Of a stretch of 64,000 nt of DNA, positions 2,224 through 41,587 are shown piece after piece. The DNA is taken from positions 5,084,001 to 5,148,000 of the forward strand of contig JAHQIY010000006.1 of assembly GCA_019054805.1 (NCBI GenBank), read 5' to 3'. The notes under the pieces were generated by a model. The model had not been told where the DNA came from. It searched no databases and was given only the letters and a program-made list of their open reading frames with translations. The position numbers and the translations under genes are program-made. Source of the DNA: Brachionus manjavacas. Lineage: Eukaryota; Rotifera; Eurotatoria; Ploima; Brachionidae. How positions within the stretch are numbered: the stretch's first letter is position 1; each line of letters starts with the position of its first letter.

Positions 2224-5200
2224 TTACCTTGATCTGTTAGAGCGCATTTTTTCGAGCTCAGCCGCTTCGAATCTCTTGCGCATCTCGATCAACTTTTCCT
2301 CGCAAAAAGACTCCAGACGAAGTGTCATGCTGTAAATGGCCGACCTTTTGTTGGTATTGAACGCCTTGGAGTTTTTGAACAGCAGCTTGCAATCTTTTTC
2401 GAACAGATCAAAGTCACTGTTGTACATGTTGTAGTTGAGTCTGCTTCTGATTATCGAAAAGTCAATTGGCTTCTTGATCAGCTGGCCATAGTCGGGATAG
2501 AGCTCTGGATCAACACTTTGTCTGAAGGGACCCGAGTCCGGGTGTCTCATGATGCGTTTGAGCAATTTTTTGGCCTCGTCCTTCCACGAATAGGCGCCGC
2601 TTGCACTGTGCTCTTGATCGGCAGCGCCCTGGTTGCTCTCTTCGGCCGCCTGGTGCCTGCTTCTCAAGTTGAACCTCAAATTGCCGGTTGCCGATTGAGG
2701 GTCGGCCCGGAGGCGCCTCGAGGTGCGTCGAGCGGCGCTCGGGCTCGCCTGGGTCTCGTTCAAATTGGAGTCCTTGCACAAACGTTTGTAGATGGGCCGC
2801 GGGTTGGAGCAGTCCGCGTCCAAAATAAACTCGACGAGGACCTGGGTGAGCAGAGTGGCCTGTTTGCAGATGTTGCTGTCCGGTTCGTTGAACTCGTGCG
2901 CGTCCTCCTCTATTTTGCGCACGTCCCACTCGATGGCCTCCACTCGGCGATAGTATCGGTTGGCCACTCTTTCTCTGATCGTGTTCAAGTCGATGGGATA
3001 GCCGATGACCATGGCGTAGTGCGGAAAGGCTATCAAATCGACGGGCAAGTTGAACGGCTCGGCAATCGACAGCTCTCGGATTATTTCGATGCCGCTCAAA
3101 ATTCTGTCGCACTGGGTGTCTCGGTCAAGGCCGTGCCACTCGTGCGCACTCGGCTCGTACAACAAACAGGCCGACGAGCGCTCGTCGTCCTCGCTGTGAG
3201 TTGGAGTGGCGGGCACTTCGTCCAAGTCCCATGGACTCAACGCGTCCTGGTCATTGCTGTCCCACACAATCGAAAAGCACTGAAATTCGCTGTGCGGATG
3301 GTGGTCGTGGAAGGGCTTGCGGGCCTCGATTCGGCCGTAGTACCACGAGTCGTCTATGAAGCTTCGGAATGTGTCGTTGGGCTGCCAGTTTTTCTGCAAC
3401 GATTTCTCGTAGTGTTGACGCAATATGACAAAGTCGGCCACGCCCGGCATGTCGTGGTACTTGAGAGTGAGCTTTTGGCCGGTCAAGTGGCCGGTGTGCG
3501 CATCGATCACGTTCAATTTGAGGCAGACTAGGCGCGGCGGCTTTATCTCGATTTGTATGCTCGTTATTTTGGCGAATTCTTTCACTTGACACTTGTTGCT
3601 AGGCAACGTGTGCTCGTCTATTTGGTAGAGCTTTTTTTGGCGCACCGCCTCCACGTACAACTCGTGGCCTTGACGAAAATAGACCACTTCGTCGCCGATT
3701 TGCGGCACGTACGGAGTTTTGCGCGGCCTCACACTGCTAAGCCACTCGGACGGCACACACTCCTGCACTGTCGTTTCGCTCGGTGTCGCCCTTTTCGAGC
3801 TAGCTTTGGCACTTTTTTTCTGACCACTGGTCAACTGACTGCACTGTGCTCTATTGGCCGATCTTTTGGCACTTTTTCGCGGCGACCTGCTCGCCACCGC
3901 CGCCTTGCTAGTGCACGGCCTGTCCACACTCTCACCATCTTCGCTCTCACTCATTTCGCTCATGTCCACCTCGTCTTCATGCTCGTCCTCACGCTCGTCG
4001 TCCTGCTCGCCGTCCAAGGCCAGCTCTAGCTCCTCTTGGTCACTGGGCAACTTTTTTATCTTGTTGGCAATTGTGCTCTTGGCGCCCGTCCTGGCCACTT
4101 GGTCGTCGGACCCGCTGGCCTGTGCGGCCATCTCGTCATCGTCCACCACTCTGAGCACTCGCTTCTTGGTCTTTCTCTTTTTTCTAGAGCGAGGCCCGTG
4201 CTCCCACTCGGAGCTGTCGGTGCGCGCCGAGCTCTCACTCGACAGCGGACTATTGTGCACGTATTCAACGCGCCTGCTGGGCCTGGCGCGTTCCTCGGCG
4301 TCACCGTGAGTGTTGTGGTCGTCGTGGTCGTTGTGGTCGTTGTGGTCGTCGTGGTCGTCCACCTGGATGAACTGCTCGTCCACAGTGTCCTCTTGGACGG
4401 CCTCGGCGTGCTCAGCGCGGCCCCTTGTGCTCTGTTTGTGGCGTCCTCGTTTGGCACAGTTGTCTTTGCTGTTCTCGTCGCGGTAAATGTACACGGAGCC
4501 TTTTTGCTTGAGCTCGATTTGCTTGAATGCGCGGTTGTAGTCGTGCTTTTCGCGGTCGAATCGCTGCCGGCGAGTTGCCTCGCTCGTGCGCCGCTCCGCA
4601 CCGTCCAACGGGTCGATCAGACTCTTGAGCCATGCGTTGCGAGCGCGCACTGTCTCCAGCAGCGGCTCGTCCGCCTCTCGGTCGCCGATTATCTCCGACA
4701 GGCCGTTCTCGTTGGTTATTATGTGCGGCACGAGCTGCGAGTCGGTGAGATTTTGGCGGCCCGGCACCAAACGCTGCAGCTGCGAGTCGTACGGGTTGCC
4801 GTCCGCGTCCACCAGAAACGGCGGCGGCATCAGGTGCGGCGGCGCTTGGGTCTGCTCGTCGAGCACGAAGCCGTTCAAGTCGCGCATCAACGGACGGTAG
4901 TCCGTGTGGAAAAATAGCTGATCGGGCACTTTTTTGTAGTTTTGGTCGAGACCGAACGAGAATATGGTGAGGTTGCCGTGCGAGTCTGTCGAGGCGAACA
5001 TGTCCGATGTGCACGACCACTTGGTGTCGAATAGGCAGCCGTGGCCCTCGTTCTCTATTCGGTTGTAGAATTTTTTTATCATTTTGCCGCTCAGGATGTT
5101 CCAAATGATCACGTTGCCGTCGTGGCCGGCGCTCAGCAGCACTCGCGGGTCTTTCGGATGAGCTTCGAGCACGAATATTTCGTTCGAGTGAGAGGTGAGC

Positions 5201-8200
5201 TCGTGGACTAGCTGGGCGTCCCTCGAGTTCCATACTTTGATCACAAAATTGTTCTGCGCAGTAATTACCAAAGAGTCGTCGCAGTTCCATGCCACCATTG
5301 TCACACTCGATTTTTTGCTCAGCAGCTCCGAAAAGTCGCTCACGTCCGATCTTAACAAAACAAAAATAATTTTTTTTTCTTTTTTCACTTGGAAAAATTA
5401 TTATCTCTTGAGAATAGATATTTTACACCATGCTTTTGCTTATTTTACTTTGTAGAAAAACCTCAATAATAAGCTCACAAGTTTTTGTCAGACTTGGAAA
5501 GTTAAACCCGAAGTTGGCTCTGGTTTTTGGTGGAAAAAAAATTTGAAAGTCAAATTTAATCTGATTTTTAAATTTAAAAAATCTACTCTTAATTCAGCGG
5601 TGGGGAAGTTTGGGGCAAAAACTGTAGCAAAATATACCAAATTAGATTGAGACCCAGTTTTGTTTCAATTATTAACAATTATTTGAAAAATTACTGTATA
5701 ACATTTTCAAACAAAATTTGTTAAAAGTAAACAAAATCAAAAAAAAAATTTATCTTTATGATTAGAGAATGAGCTATAGAAAATGAGCGTGTTTTTATAG
5801 CTAATTATTCTTTTGTGTCCTTTAGTGTCATTTTGTGTCCTTTACTTAATAAAGAATAACTATCCAACTATTCAATTAATTACATTTCTTAAATTTTTCA
5901 GCATTTTTAATTATTATTATATTTAAATTTGAAATTCTCGATACAGTTTTTTTGGTCGCATATTAAAGCGTCATTTACTTTGATTAAACGTCAATAAAAT
6001 TAATGTAAATTAAATGTATTAATTGTCATTGAAAAGATTAAATGTAACTTAAATGTATTAATTGTCAAAGTCAAAATGGTAACTTATTTCAATGAACCAT
6101 GGCTCGAATCTTACGACCCCAATAAATAATTTTATGGGGAATCGGGGGGTTATGAAGATATTCATGAGGCTTTCGATGAATAAATTGAAGCTCAAGACAA
6201 ATTAAGGAACACTTTAATTGAAACTGAGGTAGAAGAAGGTAATAATGAGACTACCCTAGCAGCAAATTCCTACAATAACGCTGTTATCCCATTTAATAAT
6301 GTGGAAGCATATAATTGGTGTTGATTAAAGCCAAGGATTATTCGAGTCCTTTCCAGCTGAAGCTTGCGACATACCTTTAGGAAAATAAAGAGGAGTAGGA
6401 CGACCAAAAAAGGAATTAAAAGCATTAGCAATGAAATAATTGAAAATATTTTCTTAATTTTTTTATGATTAAAATTTTTTTTTTTGACTCTTTACTTTAT
6501 AACATTTAATTTTATTATGTGATAACTTATTACTTAAAATGACAACTATTACTTTTAATTTACGATTCATACATTCAATTGACTAATTTTTATGTTGACT
6601 AATTAATATAAATAAATGACGATTTGATCTTTTTTTAATTGACATTTAATCAAAATAAATGACACTTTAATATAATTTCTTTTTTAAATAAAGCAAAAAA
6701 ATTAATTTTTTAAAATTTAGAGTAAGTACTTATAAATTAAAAAAACATTCTAAAATTTTCTCAATAATGCAAAGCCGGATCCGTAAGCCTGGGCTACGCC
6801 CCGGACCCCTTTTACTTATCTCAGATTTTGTTAAAATAAATCTAATTTCAAAATAAACCCATAGTCAATAAATGGTTTATTTTGATGCCAGATGGTGTAG
6901 CCAGATGTTGCATTTTTAATTTTTTTAAAAAAAGGATACCTTTTTCAATTTATACTAAATCAAAGTTATAAAAGGTCCAAGATATGCACGGTAATTTTTC
7001 AGTTATTTTACCGTGCATATCTTGGACCTTTTATAACTTTGATTTAGTATAAATTGAAAAAGGTATCCTTTTTTTAAAAAATTAAAAATGCAACATCTGG
7101 CTACACCTTTTCTCCCAAAATACAATCTTCAATTTCTATTTTAAATCAGTCATATCAATAATCAAATTGAATTTTGTAGATATCATATTTTTTGTCTTTG
7201 ATTCATGAAAATTTTTTTATAGATTAAAAAAGTGTAACATGATGTGTTACAATTTTTTTAGAATTATTATTTTATCTTAGGGGGGGTCTTAGCTCGAACA
7301 CTCATCGTCCCACATTCCTTCTCGCCAAACGCACAACCAGTCATCATAGCGATTCAAGTTGTTTTGGATTGCTCGCAGGGTGCTTCCCTGCTTTGACTTA
7401 ATTTATTATTATTTTTATTATTATCTTTAATTTAAATTTTTACAAAAAAATTTTTTTACAAAAAAATTATAATGAATTTCGCCACCTTAACATTAGATTT
7501 GCATTTATTTTTATCAATAGCACAGGTTGTAGCTTCTCTTCTTTTAACGGAATAGGGAGGAAAAAATATGATTTAAATTCTGAAAAAGCAAATAAAGAAA
7601 AAATCCATAGTGGTTTAAGTTAGAATAATGTTTGATGCAAATTTTTAACTTGTAGTGGAGCAATTTTCATTTAGAATAAAATTTGAACAACTGAAGCATT
7701 AATTCTTCATTTGAACGAATTTCCTTGTCAATAAATCTAATATTTTTTTTACTTTTCTAGAGTTTTTGAGCCATCTATGAGAATGTTTTTTAGTTGATGG
7801 GCTTCGAAGCTCCAAATTTTGGCCGTGCCATCTTTGCTTCCGCTCAAGAATCTTGCTGATGTATTGGCAAATTGAATGCTGTCGACCCAGTTGGTGTGTG
7901 ATTCAATCTCGCAGATTTTATTCGGTTCTCCGTTCTCAAAAGAATAGACTCTTATTGCGTAGTCATTGCTTCCGGCTGCAAGAAAAAGACCTCCTTTTGT
8001 AAAATATTTTTTTTAAATTATAAAAAATTATTTTTTCCTTTAATTTTACCTGGACTAAATGAAAGACAAAGCATTTGGCTTCCGGGTCTCGATTTTTCAA
8101 TAAATCTTTTCGGCTTGGGACTAAGTAATTTTTAAATTTTGTTAATAAAAAAAGGGGAAATAAAAATAAATTTATTTCTACTTGAACTCCAATGTCTCAG

Positions 8201-13913: not shown

Positions 13914-16900
13914 TTAATAAACTTTTCCACCATGAATTAATGGTTTTTGTTCCATTTGCTCCACTTCATTAGTTAATTCATTCGCATCATATGTTGTTTT
14001 TGAACTATCATCTGAAATTGACTGGGAACTGGTTATCGAGCACATTGGTATCAATGACTCAAATTCGGCATCGTTTATTTCCAAATATCCGGCTGACATG
14101 TCATCATCATAATGGTTATTTCTTTCAAAATACAATACATTTGACCTATCGTTTTTGATCAGACACCTAGATTTCTTATCAAATCGTTTAATGCATATAT
14201 CTCGAGCCATTTTATGAATGTGACTAAAATTTTCGTTTCTTGATGCTGAATAACTAAAGAGACAATTTTTATCTGGACCCAAAAGAAACGAAATTAAAAG
14301 TTTATTTTGTTCAGGAAGCTTCAGATATTTGTGGTTTAAAGCTTCTTGGTAGCTTACTGATTTAACTAAGGATAGCGAATTTGAAAAGTTGGAAAATTTT
14401 GTATTAGTCTCGGTAACAGTTCGTTTGCTTTCTGTACTTGAGTTACTATTTATTAAACTACTTTTCTCACTGTTGACTTCTTCTAAATTAAATGGCTGAA
14501 CTTGTTGATTAAATGTAACATAAATGGTTTTGGCTTCATATTGTGGAAAGCAATGAAACTTATTGTACTCGTCGTGAAACTTATTTTGGCCTATAATGAA
14601 CGGACTTCGAAGATTTTTAATTTCATCCTTTGTACCACAAACGTAAACTATTTTATCAGCATTTTCAATTGCTTCAGATCTTGTTTTGATATCTGTTGAA
14701 TAGTTGATAATTTGAATCGAAAAGTTCTTGAATCGTTTCTTATTATAAAAAAAAAATCATTTTCAAATTTTTAAAAAAAATTTTTTTAAGCTAAATTAAA
14801 AAAAAAATTAGATTCTTTATTAATTTAAAAACCTGCGCTAAAAAATTAATCAATTATTTTAAATAGATTAAACTAAATTGACTTCTTAATTTGGTTTAAT
14901 CTATTAATTTGTTAATTGAATTCGTAATTTTAAAGAAAAAAATGCAAAAATTTAAAATTTTTTTAATTTTTTTCCATCATAGAATGGACAATTCAGACAC
15001 AGAGCTATTTTCATCATGAAAACTCATCTTTTTTTTTTTTTGATATTTTTAATAGCTATGATGTCATAAAATAATTATATGTAGATATTTAAAAACAAAA
15101 TTTATTAATTAAATTTAAACGAGCTTTCAAAGTGAGGGTAAAAACTCATTATATGTTGTTCTCCACATCATAGCCTTTTTTTGGCTATTATTATTAATTG
15201 GTATATTTAAGATAATAAATATATTCAACTTAAAAGAGTTATAAGAACTCTTTAACCAAAATTTTATCCATATCAATGATTTAGTTTTTAACGAAATAAA
15301 ACTTGTGATCATCTAAAAATTCAACAATTTGATGCGAGCATTTGAAACGAGAAACTTTGTTGACAAATGACATAAATGATATTTAAAAGACTTTGTGAAA
15401 TTCATTTCAAAATGATAAAAAGAACAGAAAAAAATGTAAAAATATTGAATTATTTTTTTCTGACAGTTTAAAATTAGTTCCATTAAGTTTCATCAAATAA
15501 TATGGTCTGCTAAACTCTGCAAAATTAGTTGAAATCAGATTTCAATATATTCGAGCGTGGTGCATTTTGCAGAGATTTTGCACATCATTAACAGACTTTG
15601 ACAGCTGATGCAACTTAGAATGTTGCACAATGCTGCATTCACGGGACCAATTTTAAATTTTTAGAAAATTTTTTATCATTTTGTTCTGTTCTTTAGTACT
15701 GAACTTCTCAAAACCTACTATTTGACTTACAAAATATTATATCATATAATATAAAATTAATTAGTTTACAAAAGTTTAGTTTTAAAAATTGATGTTTTTT
15801 TTCAATTAATAAATTAGCATTAATGCAAAACTAGATGAAATTTTTGTTAAGAACATTCTGAACTTCAATAAGTTTTAAAATTTTTTTTTAGTTTAAGCTA
15901 ACTCTAAATAATCTAAGTAATTTCTAAATAGCATATTTTTTACATCTCTTTTTGTCGTCATCAAATAATAGTAATTTTTTCATATTTTTTTTTTACTAAT
16001 TAAATAGTAATTTGAGTTAAAAAATATTCTAAAATTGTAAATATTTATATTTGGTTTAATAGTTACATTAAAAAGCAAATAAAAGAATCATGAACAGAAT
16101 ATGCTCTTACCTTCAAAAGATTGGTATATTTTAAAACAAATTCATTGAGTTTTTCTTGTTGCTCTTTGCTCAAAAATATCGATAAATAAAAAACAATTTT
16201 TTTGTTTGATGCTTAATTATAAAAATTATTTAATTTAAAATTAGAAAAATAATTAACTTACTAAAGGCATAATTAAGAATGCTCTGAAAACTAATAAAAT
16301 AAATCATAATAAAAATAAAAATAATGATCAAAAAGGAAATAATTATGAAAACTGAATATCTGTTTCCGATTACATCCACAAAATCAATGCCATCACAAAA
16401 CTCGATTAAATCCATCTGATCAGAGTAATCAAAAGGTAACATCATCAAAGACAGATTAAAATCGTTCGGAAGCAGTCCGGCAAGTGTTTCAGTCTTGAAA
16501 AATATCTCATTTAAATCAAAATTGGAATTGTTTATGATATTAGTTAGCACGGTGCTTTCTCTGGGACACTTAAAATTATTGAAATTTATTTTCTTGTCTA
16601 GCTGTTCAATTCTAATCTGCGGCTTAATTCGGTGACAATATTCTCGAGTGTACTTGTTTTTCGGCTCAATCGAATTCGAGTCTGAAACCATTTTTGATTG
16701 AAGATCAAATTTGATCAATAGCCGATTACATTTGACACATGTTATTTCATTATTGACGGCTGACTCATCAATGCACTGATCAACGCCAGGACAAAACTTG
16801 CTCCTCTGCTTCACCTGCAGTTCCAAAAAATACTTTCCTTTTTTTAAATGCTTTATTTCCACTAGTTGCTTAGAACTAATCGGATCAATAAATGCAACTG

Positions 16901-18888
16901 GTCTAACATCCAATTTGAACAGGAATTTTTTACCATAGGCTTTTTTGTGAATTTCTTTATCAATATAGCTGTATTCGTATAAATTGAATCTGTAGTGTGT
17001 ACTGTTCAACACGTTCGATTCAGCCACCCGGCGATAGTCATTAAAAAGAATTTTTAATTTAAAAAAACCTTTGGCTTCGCCATAATTGAAATCGATGCAC
17101 AGTCTTGGCAAAAAGTCTCGATTGCTTAGCACACTGGATGACTCTTCAAGACTTCTAGCTTTTCTTACTGATGACAAATCTTGATTTTGAAAATTAAATG
17201 CTTAAATTAAACGAAAAATTAAATGTTTTAATTTTTTTTTTCTAAAACTAACCCATTTTATTATTGTCAAAGTTGAACAAATTAAAAGGATAATCCGAAC
17301 AATGTTTGCTCTTTTTGATCTTTACAGAATAATCATGATTCAAGGGAACATAATTGATCACTTGATTTTTGTTCTCTTGTTTTGGAATTTTATAGCATTC
17401 TATGCATTCATTTTTACATTTACAATATTTTTTGCTTTCGGTCGACTCATTAAAGCAAACATTTTTCCTTGTTGGCTCATTTAAAATGCCAACATAGTTC
17501 ATTCTTTCACCAGATTTTATAAACTTGGCAACTATTCCATTGGCGAACATTTGAGACCGCTTTGAAACCAAATTGGGCGCAAAGTATAAACTATTCGGAT
17601 CTAAATCAGTGTAGTATTCAACATTTTCAAAGTAAATGCTCTTTTTGCCCGAATTACGGGCTTCTTTGACAATCTTTAACTGATAAGATTCTAATGAAAA
17701 TATGTCCGAATCACCCAAAATGTTTTCGAATTCGTCTGACATAGCTTGAAGAATAATGTAGTAGTTATCTTTATCGTCGGAAAATGGACTATATCTGAGG
17801 ATACACGTCTGCTGCATCAGATGTCCTTTGCACATGTCTTTAGAGAAATTCATTGACAAGAAAATCATTTTTTTTAAACAAATATACCTGGCACGATTTT
17901 AAAACTTTCAGCCAATTTATCACTTTTTATTCCTATTTCCAAAGGTGACGACTGACTGCTGCCCACTGCGCACAAATGACCGTGCCTGTAACCTATCGAG
18001 GTCTTGTCATTACATGTAGTCAGTGCACGGACAACTATTTTTCCAAAATAGAACGTATACCAGCTGTTTGCGTGGCTTAAAAATGAAGGATCTTTGATTC
18101 TAAATTTGAACCTCTTAAATAAATAAAAATTTTGCTTATTCAAAAATTCAATGATCAATCTATTTCATGAAATTTAGTAAAATATTTTATCAACAATTGA
18201 AATAAATTTTTCCTGATTTTAAATAAAATTTAAATTTTTTTTTTAAATTTTGACATCATCAGTCAATTAGATAATTAAATTGTTGACTTTTTTTATTAAG
18301 ATTTTTTGTCTTAAAAACAAAATTTATACTTCTTTTATGAATTTAAAAAAAAAATAAAAAATAATGTAGAAGACAAGCTCACTTTGAAATTATTGACTGG
18401 ATCGATGTGGTCATTGATTATTTGAACACAACTATACGTTTGCTCATCAAAGTAAAATTTAAGCTCGTACCCTTTGATTTTTTGCAGTCCTTGAAATAAA
18501 TTGTTAACTCAAGTTTTCATTTTTATCTAATATATATTTTACCTGGTATGTTTATCGAGTTAAACTCGACTTCAATCAAAAATGATAAAGTCTTTTCATA
18601 ATTTGAGTATAATAGCGTGTTAGCCTTGAACTGATATTCTTTGTCTAGTTTAGTCTGGGCTTCGTTCTCACCGGAAATAATAGGCAATGATATGTGATTT
18701 TCGGTGAGTTCAGCGGCACAAATACCGTCTCCGCCGATAAATGTGGCGAATGGTTGAATGTTTAAATTTGTCCTGACTTCATAAAAGTGAATTTTTTGGT
18801 ATAAAAATATAACATTTGCTTCTGTTCTTGTGCAAGCCAGGATGAGAATGATCAGGAAGACTAGGTAAATATTGAACCAACGTTTCAT
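13914..18888 (-). CDS. Single-pass receptor with SEFIR/TIR-like cytoplasmic domain (IL-17-receptor-like)
   Basis: Seven exons (18888-18543, 18489-18383, 18113-17888, 17837-17253, 17179-16262, 16211-16111, 14738-13914) sum to 3108 nt (1035 aa). All phases agree. The N-terminus has a signal peptide (MKRWFNIYLVFLIILILAC). An ectodomain of about 680 residues has scattered Cys, then one membrane helix (YSVFIIISFLIIIFIFIMIYF). The cytoplasmic part opens with KIVFYLSIFLSKEQQ, continues with FSIQIINYSTDI and then ADKIVYVCG. This order resembles the first strand, second strand and ADKVIVVCS strand of SEFIR domains in IL-17 receptors and Act1. The remaining tail is Ser-rich. In the family, SEFIR domains recruit Act1-type adaptors at the plasma membrane. 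The gene model is firm; the SEFIR call rests on strand pattern only, and a divergent TIR domain is the alternative. Confidence 0.6.
14739..16110. other. 1.4-kb intron inside the SEFIR-coding region
   Basis: The intron splits the cytoplasmic domain between its first helix and second strand. No extra exon is evident. Weakly inverted sequences occur near 15410-15490 and 15640-15695 (GATAAAAA..GAACAG and TTTAAAATT.GTCC words), perhaps the ends of a degraded element. Confidence 0.5.
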
Positions 18889-40653: not shown

Positions 40654-41587
40654 CTATTTTTGGAGCCAACCTTTATTGAAACATTTAGGTGAAACAACAA
40701 CAACTGGTGTTCCCAACGAGGGTCGCCAGATCAAAATTTGAGCACTATTTGCGTTTGATGGATACAAAGCGCAATCCGGAATCTTAAAATTGTTCTTGAG
40801 GGCATAAGGCTGCCTGGGAACTGGACTGCTGACAAGCTTTGCTCTGCTTCCTTGTTCTTTGGATGGATCGACCTGAATTTCTAGTTTCATTCTCCATTTA
40901 AATGTTTTCAGTACAACAAACGTTCCATTCAAAACATCCATTGCCACTAGCCATGTGTAAAACTTTTGATCTCGTTTTATATTTGTTAGCTTAGGCGTTT
41001 TATCCGAACTAGTCGGTATGTCCCATGTGACATGCGGATAAAAATTGTCATTCATACTCACATGGTGCATGGTAAAATTTTGTTGCGGACCTTTGATAAG
41101 TACAACCTCTGTTTTACTTCCGTACCATGGAAAGTTTTTACCATCTGAGTCGCTAATCATCGGTTTCAGACCGGTGGCCAACTCGGGAAATTCCCAACTT
41201 GAACTGGCAAAATCTAAAGTTAAAATTTTGCTCTTATTTGTAAATTCAAAATTACCATCCAAGATTGCCGTACGAATTCCGGAACTGCATGTAAGTGCAA
41301 GCTTGAATCCAGCCGATTTTCCAAATTTCGTCTCGGTTAATCGGGGGGAATTTGATTCGGGCCGATGCCCTAAGAGAGGAAAAATTCTAGAAAATTTTTT
41401 TTATTAATAATTGCTTAATCAATTACTTGAAATGAGGAGTTCGATATTTAAGGACTGATGACGATCTCTCATCAATTTGTGTTGGCTTATTTTCTATTCG
41501 GACTTCTAGTTTGTCAATTTTGATGCGAGTAATAACATTTGAATTGGTGCTGATGGAGTTTCGATTTTTGTTATTTAAGTTTCCCAT
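40654..41587 (-). CDS. FAM78: FAM78 family protein
   Basis: Three exons (41587-41427, 41369-41256, 41203-40654) sum to 825 nt (274 aa). The N-terminus MGNLNN carries a Gly-2 typical of N-myristoylation, like MGCIQS in human FAM78A. Family blocks follow: PTQIDERSSSVLKYRTPHF, WKIGWIQACTYMQF, SSWEFPELATG, ISDSDGKNFPWYG, SMNDNFYPHVTW, KLTNIKRDQKFYTWLVA and WRPSLGTPVVVVSPK. The 52-bp second intron is translatable, so an unspliced reading gives a false upstream start. FAM78 proteins are conserved in animals but have no established biochemical activity. The gene sits immediately upstream of PCID2 on the same strand. Family membership is very secure. Confidence 0.93.

Follow-up and report, generated by a model that had tools for sequence, protein, structure and literature searches.

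We analyzed a 64,000-nucleotide stretch of the genome of the rotifer Brachionus manjavacas (hereafter the window; contig JAHQIY010000006.1 of assembly GCA_019054805.1, forward-strand positions 5,084,001 to 5,148,000) which carries a seven-exon receptor gene on its minus strand, running from window position 18888 to 13914. Together with two sister genes elsewhere in the genome, L012 and L013, this gene forms a family of three, and on balance its members are most likely divergent interleukin-17 (IL-17) receptors of B. manjavacas. The intracellular domain of the family is probably a strongly changed SEFIR-like domain, as judged from comparison of sequence profiles.

Gene model and receptor family

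The seven exons splice into an unbroken open reading frame of 1035 codons plus a stop codon, and all six introns are GT-AG. The splice model that an initial annotation of this DNA had proposed was recovered, with no internal stop. Hydropathy agrees with the signal peptide, large ectodomain and one membrane helix described there: residues 1–24 are signal-like, the sole strong membrane segment spans residues ~695–719 (16287..16361), and the resulting topology places ~670 residues outside (~680 in the earlier description) and ~315 inside. The peptides from which that annotation had read a SEFIR domain are all present in the window protein, in the order given. These features support a type I single-pass receptor architecture with a large ectodomain. 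Exon 1 (18543..18888; this and all following gene features lie on the minus strand) contains the start codon, the signal-peptide-like stretch (18888–18817) and the beginning of the ectodomain, while exon 5 (16262..17179) encodes the membrane-proximal ectodomain and the membrane helix. Exon 6 (16111..16211) encodes SEFIR-like strand A (residues 732–738, 16200–16180) and helix A, elements assigned by eye, and exon 7 (13914..14738) holds the remainder of the SEFIR-like domain, a Ser-rich tail and the stop codon.

Six-frame searches of the rotifer’s own genome, covering 114.17 Mb in 61 contigs, identified two significant sister places with the intracellular exon as query (C6:4144653-4144886, E 1e-8; C2:4994231-4994557, E 8.5e-5), followed by two weak matches at E 0.6 and 0.9. 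Both significant matches start within three residues of the start of window exon 7. Spliced models of the two sister genes, with splice sites picked by eye and the window gene as guide, comprise, free of internal stops, 844 residues (with the start undefined) and 764 residues, and both proteins align with the window protein over their length. Of the aligned letters, 149/541 and 127/514 are identical to the window protein in the ectodomain, and 59/164 and 41/131 in the intracellular part. In the reverse direction, L012 as query recovered the window gene both in its intracellular part (E 3.8e-10) and in its ectodomain (E 3.6e-7, 0.0017 and 0.003), with two other places at E 0.06 only. The window ectodomain alone returned nothing in the genome except its own gene at E up to 1, and L013 returned nothing except itself at E up to 10. 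Twelve cysteines are invariant among the three paralogues, eleven in the ectodomain and one in intracellular strand C. The window gene, L012 and L013 therefore constitute a three-gene receptor family.

Gene structure is also shared. Every one of the six window introns is matched in L012 by an intron of identical phase no more than two alignment columns away; exon 2 (18383..18489), for example, is preceded by a phase 1 and followed by a phase 0 intron in both genes. L013 likewise shares window intron 2, displaced by one column, as well as the last one, and has a phase 1 intron six columns from the first window intron. The last intron (intron 6 of the window gene, 14739..16110) occupies the same aligned column in phase 0 in all three genes, with lengths of 1372 bases in the window, 54 in L012 and 49 in L013. 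The 1372 bases between exons 6 and 7 would suit a model that fuses an ectodomain gene to a separate intracellular gene, and the initial annotation had entertained the possibility that exons above and below 15 kb are separate genes. The short introns of the sister genes counter this doubt. Moreover, a single exon of L013 encodes ectodomain, membrane helix and first intracellular strand, with the remainder resuming 49 bases on. Because this one exon spans ectodomain, helix and first SEFIR strand, the ectodomain-to-intracellular join is real rather than a modeling artifact, and fusion is an extremely improbable explanation.

Several further sequences surfaced in these searches. The weak matches to L012 at C31:197182-197496 and 208242-208556 (E 0.06) are identical, lie on opposite strands ~11 kb apart, and are perhaps an inverted duplication. 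A weak genome match at L005/L014 was considered as a relative and dropped, as it lies in an IQ-motif protein, which from its sequence we take to be ASPM-like. Frames beyond the L013 receptor (L013:8755-9449) resemble retrotransposon reverse transcriptase by their letters.

SEFIR-like intracellular domain

Because databases were blind to the intracellular domain, a profile built from the three family sequences was compared by hhalign with profiles of known SEFIR domains. The vertebrate profile contained six SEFIRs: human IL17RA (4nux), human and mouse IL17RB (9ot1, 3vbc), human IL17RC, IL17RD, and Act1; the letters of the IL17RB chains were confirmed. The bacterial profile, a narrow set, used 18 of 19 proteins, two of which were checked by Pfam and matched both PF08357 and TIR_2, and the combined profile joined vertebrate and bacterial SEFIRs. 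Against both the vertebrate and the combined profile, strand C was matched by IENADKIVYVCGT and the last helix by all or most of LKLPEQNKLLISFLLGPDK; these top two segments are collinear and fall in the right places. In the vertebrate comparison the single-best run ranked the last helix first and the multi-segment run ranked strand C first. Strand C was again the top segment with the bacterial profile.

The score of the collinear pair was compared with 200 column shuffles and with 65 control windows, comprising 64 ectodomain windows (32 forward, 32 reversed) and the reversed domain. None of the shuffles or control windows reached the pair score of the vertebrate profile (35.1) or the combined profile (33.4), and a single shuffle and no control window reached that of the bacterial profile (26.9). 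Excluding zeros, shuffle means were 19.2 (standard deviation, sd, 2.6), 18.6 (sd 2.2) and 19.8 (sd 2.5) for the vertebrate, combined and bacterial profiles, respectively. When Gumbel distributions were fitted to the best single segment, the values were 0.0003, 0.003 and 0.005 for the SEFIR profiles and 0.2 for TIR. Fits of the pair score look less favorable than the shuffle counts (P 0.07–0.21). These pair-score fits are distorted by shuffles lacking a collinear pair, which were scored as zero; of 200 shuffles each, this concerned 14 for the combined, 19 for the vertebrate and 14 for the bacterial profile. Global hhalign mode produced trivial end matches only. Other targets gave chance values: shuffles scored as well in 145/200 cases for the IL-17 ligand, 80/200 for the family’s ectodomain region D1, and 70/200 for the IL17RA/RB ectodomain. 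Since these targets and TIR behave as chance, this modest likeness is specific to SEFIR.

A TIR-domain receptor in place of a SEFIR receptor is very unlikely on this evidence. The SEFIR and TIR domains share a superfamily (PMC4014126), the strand A-B-C order would fit both, and both checked bacterial SEFIRs also match Pfam TIR_2. However, the family profile scored at chance against the genome’s own TIR fragments, a thin target of four, where shuffles did as well in 37/200 cases for the best segment and in 24/200 for the pair (24.3 against a shuffle mean of 21.0, sd 2.8), and no Pfam TIR match was obtained in the family.

A number of observations weigh against the SEFIR assignment. The window protein matched no Pfam family at E up to 10, a Pfam search with its intracellular part alone returned nothing relevant, neither SEFIR (PF08357) nor TIR was found by Pfam in L012 or L013, and PDB sequence searches with a single sequence or the three-sequence profile returned no SEFIR chain. 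The hhalign probability against SEFIR profiles was 0.7–5.5 percent, with single-comparison P of 0.007–0.083, and with absolute scores this weak, register and controls have to carry the argument. With the bacterial profile the second segment lands at a non-equivalent position. The third segment is out of register in each of the three SEFIR comparisons, where strand B of the family is aligned to strand A of SEFIR. As a null, column shuffling is easy to beat, the 64 ectodomain windows are mutually overlapping, and for IL17RC, IL17RD and Act1 the sequences were verified through Pfam alone, which confirmed PF08357 in each. Stray weak matches in PDB (among others N-WASP, 0.034; dipeptidase, 0.078; UPF0106, 1) and in Pfam (W02B3_4_N, 0.021; OAD_gamma, 0.83; one family member each) pointed in no common direction and were disregarded. 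An AlphaFold2 model of 165 contiguous residues of exon 7, excluding strand A and relatives, had a mean predicted local distance difference test score (pLDDT) of 31.6 and is uninformative either way.

The same lack of confident Pfam or PDB sequence recognition anywhere in the three proteins would be expected of a receptor family peculiar to this lineage whose intracellular part is an unrelated alpha/beta domain that resembles SEFIR by chance. We regard this as unlikely: for the vertebrate and combined profiles, two separate segments match with correct order and position and outscore every control that was run, and the strand C segment matches the bacterial profile too. The SEFIR reading of the initial annotation thus holds in part: a collinear strand C and last helix match stands above controls in SEFIR register and the genome has many IL-17 ligands but no receptor above Pfam cut-offs, while neither Pfam nor PDB recognizes a SEFIR, the hhalign probability is low, and structure prediction gives no help. 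Since the PF08357 test failed to recognize it, we stop short of classing the gene as a proven member of the SEFIR family; this failure lowers the claim to membership, not the likeness, and the gene resembles such a member and probably functions like one.

The strand C segment corresponds to residues 785–797 (14631..14669; IENADKIVYVCGT), the best hhalign segment against the SEFIR profiles, and the last helix to residues 900–918 (14268..14324; LKLPEQNKLLISFLLGPDK), the second segment against the vertebrate and combined profiles. SEFIR-like strands B (residues 767–774, FSIQIINY; 14700..14723) and D (residues 831–838, KTIYVTFN; 14508..14531) were placed by eye on the paralogue alignment. No blocks of the family are better conserved than the putative helix C position (residues 815–823, FHDEYNKFH; 14553..14579) and strand C. 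F815, D817 and E818 are invariant across the three paralogues, and the IG..F.DE block at residues 810–818, which falls at the place of SEFIR helix C, is among the best conserved parts. The second half of the domain, described earlier as lacking landmarks, has conserved ones in the sister alignment, namely IG..F.DE and LP at residues 902–903. An insertion between strand C and helix C distinguishes SEFIR from TIR, and helix C is critical for contact of IL-17RB with Act1 (PMC4014126). In the rotifer family ~17 residues separate strand C from the conserved FHDEYNK block, the equivalence of which to SEFIR helix C is assigned by position only. A Ser-rich insert between strand D and the last helix (residues 839–899; 14325..14507) is far shorter in L013.

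Ectodomain

Two ectodomain regions invite comparison with IL-17 receptors. Exons 2 and 3 (exon 3, 17888..18113) encode a block at residues 121–186 (GYELKF..SCVQI..RFKFRIKDPSF..YTFYF) which by eye is like fibronectin type III (fnIII) domain 1 of IL17RA. Exon 4 (17253..17837, residues 227–421) is a possible domain 2 equivalent, with a TC(I/L)..R(Y/F) block and a CxCxxxCxxC cysteine motif (residues 365–374, 17424–17395). No Pfam match to IL17R fnIII domains 1 or 2 was found in the family. Comparison by hhalign aligned the residue 121–186 region with domain 1 at the expected place (13/200 shuffles as good) and exon 4 with domain 2 of IL17RA/RB at the expected cysteines (4/200), and for the whole ectodomain against IL17RA/RB 6/100 shuffles were as good. 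Swapping the domains gave 100/200 for the first region against domain 2 and 14/200 for exon 4 against domain 1, the latter about equal to the domain 1 match itself. In view of these wrong-domain controls, kinship of the ectodomain with IL-17 receptors is not significant, and these figures count against an IL-17 receptor identity. The resemblance may serve as a lead only. The initial annotation had found no feature in the ectodomain to match to vertebrate receptors; parts of it are comparable after all, with no significance to the comparison.

IL-17 ligands and receptor domains in the genome

Twelve IL-17 ligand loci were found above the Pfam cut-off (PF06083) in the rotifer’s own genome. Eight of the twelve were read, and all eight have an IL-17 core consisting of CPW, CPR, CPY or CHS, followed by C-x-C-x-x-C, C-x-P and C-x-C; most of those read have a hydrophobic start by eye. 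Four of the twelve loci are clustered within ~12 kb on both strands (C5 2664545-2676866). Exon-by-exon searching of the genome detected four TIR exons above cut-off, no IL17R domain 1 above cut-off, and no SEFIR above cut-off, with two SEFIR fragments at E 0.42 and 0.95. Absence of SEFIR and domain 1 from the genome is not proven by this, because the search was exon by exon and the models matched in 0/14 control genomes. The weak PF08357 fragments, L061 and L062, were rejected as SEFIR receptors; they are chance-like and have no receptor-like frames around them.

The twelve ligands would be cognate to the three-gene receptor family. An alternative is that these are SEFIR-like receptors that do not bind IL-17, either modulators of another pathway in the manner of IL17RD/Sef or receptors of an unrelated ligand. 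The insignificant kinship of the ectodomain to IL-17 receptors agrees with this, as do its length and the CxCxxxCxxC motif. Set against it are twelve IL-17 loci in a genome with no other receptor above Pfam cut-offs, where the family is the only candidate found, and we consider receptors of this kind distinctly improbable.

For divergent IL-17 receptors, we infer the fold, ligand, adaptor and output of the window receptor as follows. Secreted IL-17 dimers would engage the ectodomains of a pair of receptor chains, so that their intracellular domains come together. The SEFIR-like fold could then recruit an Act1-type SEFIR adaptor by like-with-like contact, and the recruited adaptor might start NF-kB or MALT1-type signaling. 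In nematodes, IL-17 co-receptors act via an Act1-like adaptor, IRAK and MALT1 (PMC7190641).

IL-17 signaling is an old animal cytokine system present from cnidarians on (PMC8353272). Chances seem to us evenly balanced that in B. manjavacas the whole IL-17 receptor set has drifted past recognition by sequence models, so that at least 12 ligand loci depend on three duplicated receptors whose cysteine-rich ectodomain has been enlarged and whose SEFIR domain has been rebuilt. If so, standard surveys would show this IL-17 system as ligands without receptors, and the pathway would seem broken in a genome that has a dozen ligand loci but lacks any receptor above Pfam cut-offs. Receptor surveys in sea urchin (PMC5457136) and mussel relied on PF08357, in the mussel together with BLAST. 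If the three genes are receptors, surveys based on Pfam SEFIR miss some lineages, and the family would be an extreme case for asking which receptor parts must persist while ligands multiply. Among the literature matches listed, judged by title and start of abstract, no earlier report on a rotifer SEFIR or IL-17 was found, and rotifers are not mentioned in the main text of PMC8353272, PMC4517768 or PMC5457136.

Comparison with known receptors

The window gene shares with IL-17 receptors (IL17RA, IL17RB, IL17RC, IL17RD, and invertebrate IL17Rs) a signal-like N-terminus, a long ectodomain, one membrane helix and, as far as the weak profile match shows, SEFIR-like segments in order, and the genome shares with that family the presence of few receptor genes beside many IL-17 genes. 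It differs in having no Pfam match to SEFIR (PF08357) or to fnIII domains 1 and 2, in its ectodomain of ~670 residues, and in the ~60-residue Ser-rich insert before the last helix of the window copy. TIR-domain receptors belong to the same intracellular superfamily; unlike them, the window family matches TIR fragments at chance level.

Two invertebrate systems are close in form. The sea urchin receptors SpIL17R1 and SpIL17R2 have extracellular regions of 535 and 662 residues, one membrane region and one intracellular SEFIR; two receptors serve 35 IL17 genes, and no Act1 is reported to have been found there (PMC5457136). The large ectodomain and the few receptors against many ligands are alike in the rotifer, whereas the sea urchin SEFIR is described under PF08357 (PMC5457136) and the rotifer family goes unrecognized by it. 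Trichoplax has a transmembrane SEFIR protein whose extracellular part is reported to lack a significant fibronectin match (PMC6321704), as in the rotifer. In contrast to the sub-threshold profile comparison obtained for the window gene, the Trichoplax SEFIR is annotated and similar to IL-17 receptors by HHpred (PMC6321704).

Other observations in the window and genome

The window also contains a BRWD/PHIP-type gene on the minus strand (2224-5397) with WD repeats, a BRWD ancillary domain and bromodomains, in a stretch of ~47–52 percent GC compared with 21–35 percent for most of the window. A 248-residue open frame on the minus strand (40657-41400) matches nothing in Pfam at E up to 0.001. Elsewhere in the assembly, the only COX1 match above cut-off (L063, on contig C21 of 1221242 bases) is an intronless 661-residue gene, one of four successive open frames with 32–36 percent GC, within the 4.3 kb of this contig that were read. 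We take the four frames, from their letters, to be CyoA/B/C-like. The 1.22 Mb contig looks bacterial, and perhaps represents a symbiont inside the animal assembly.

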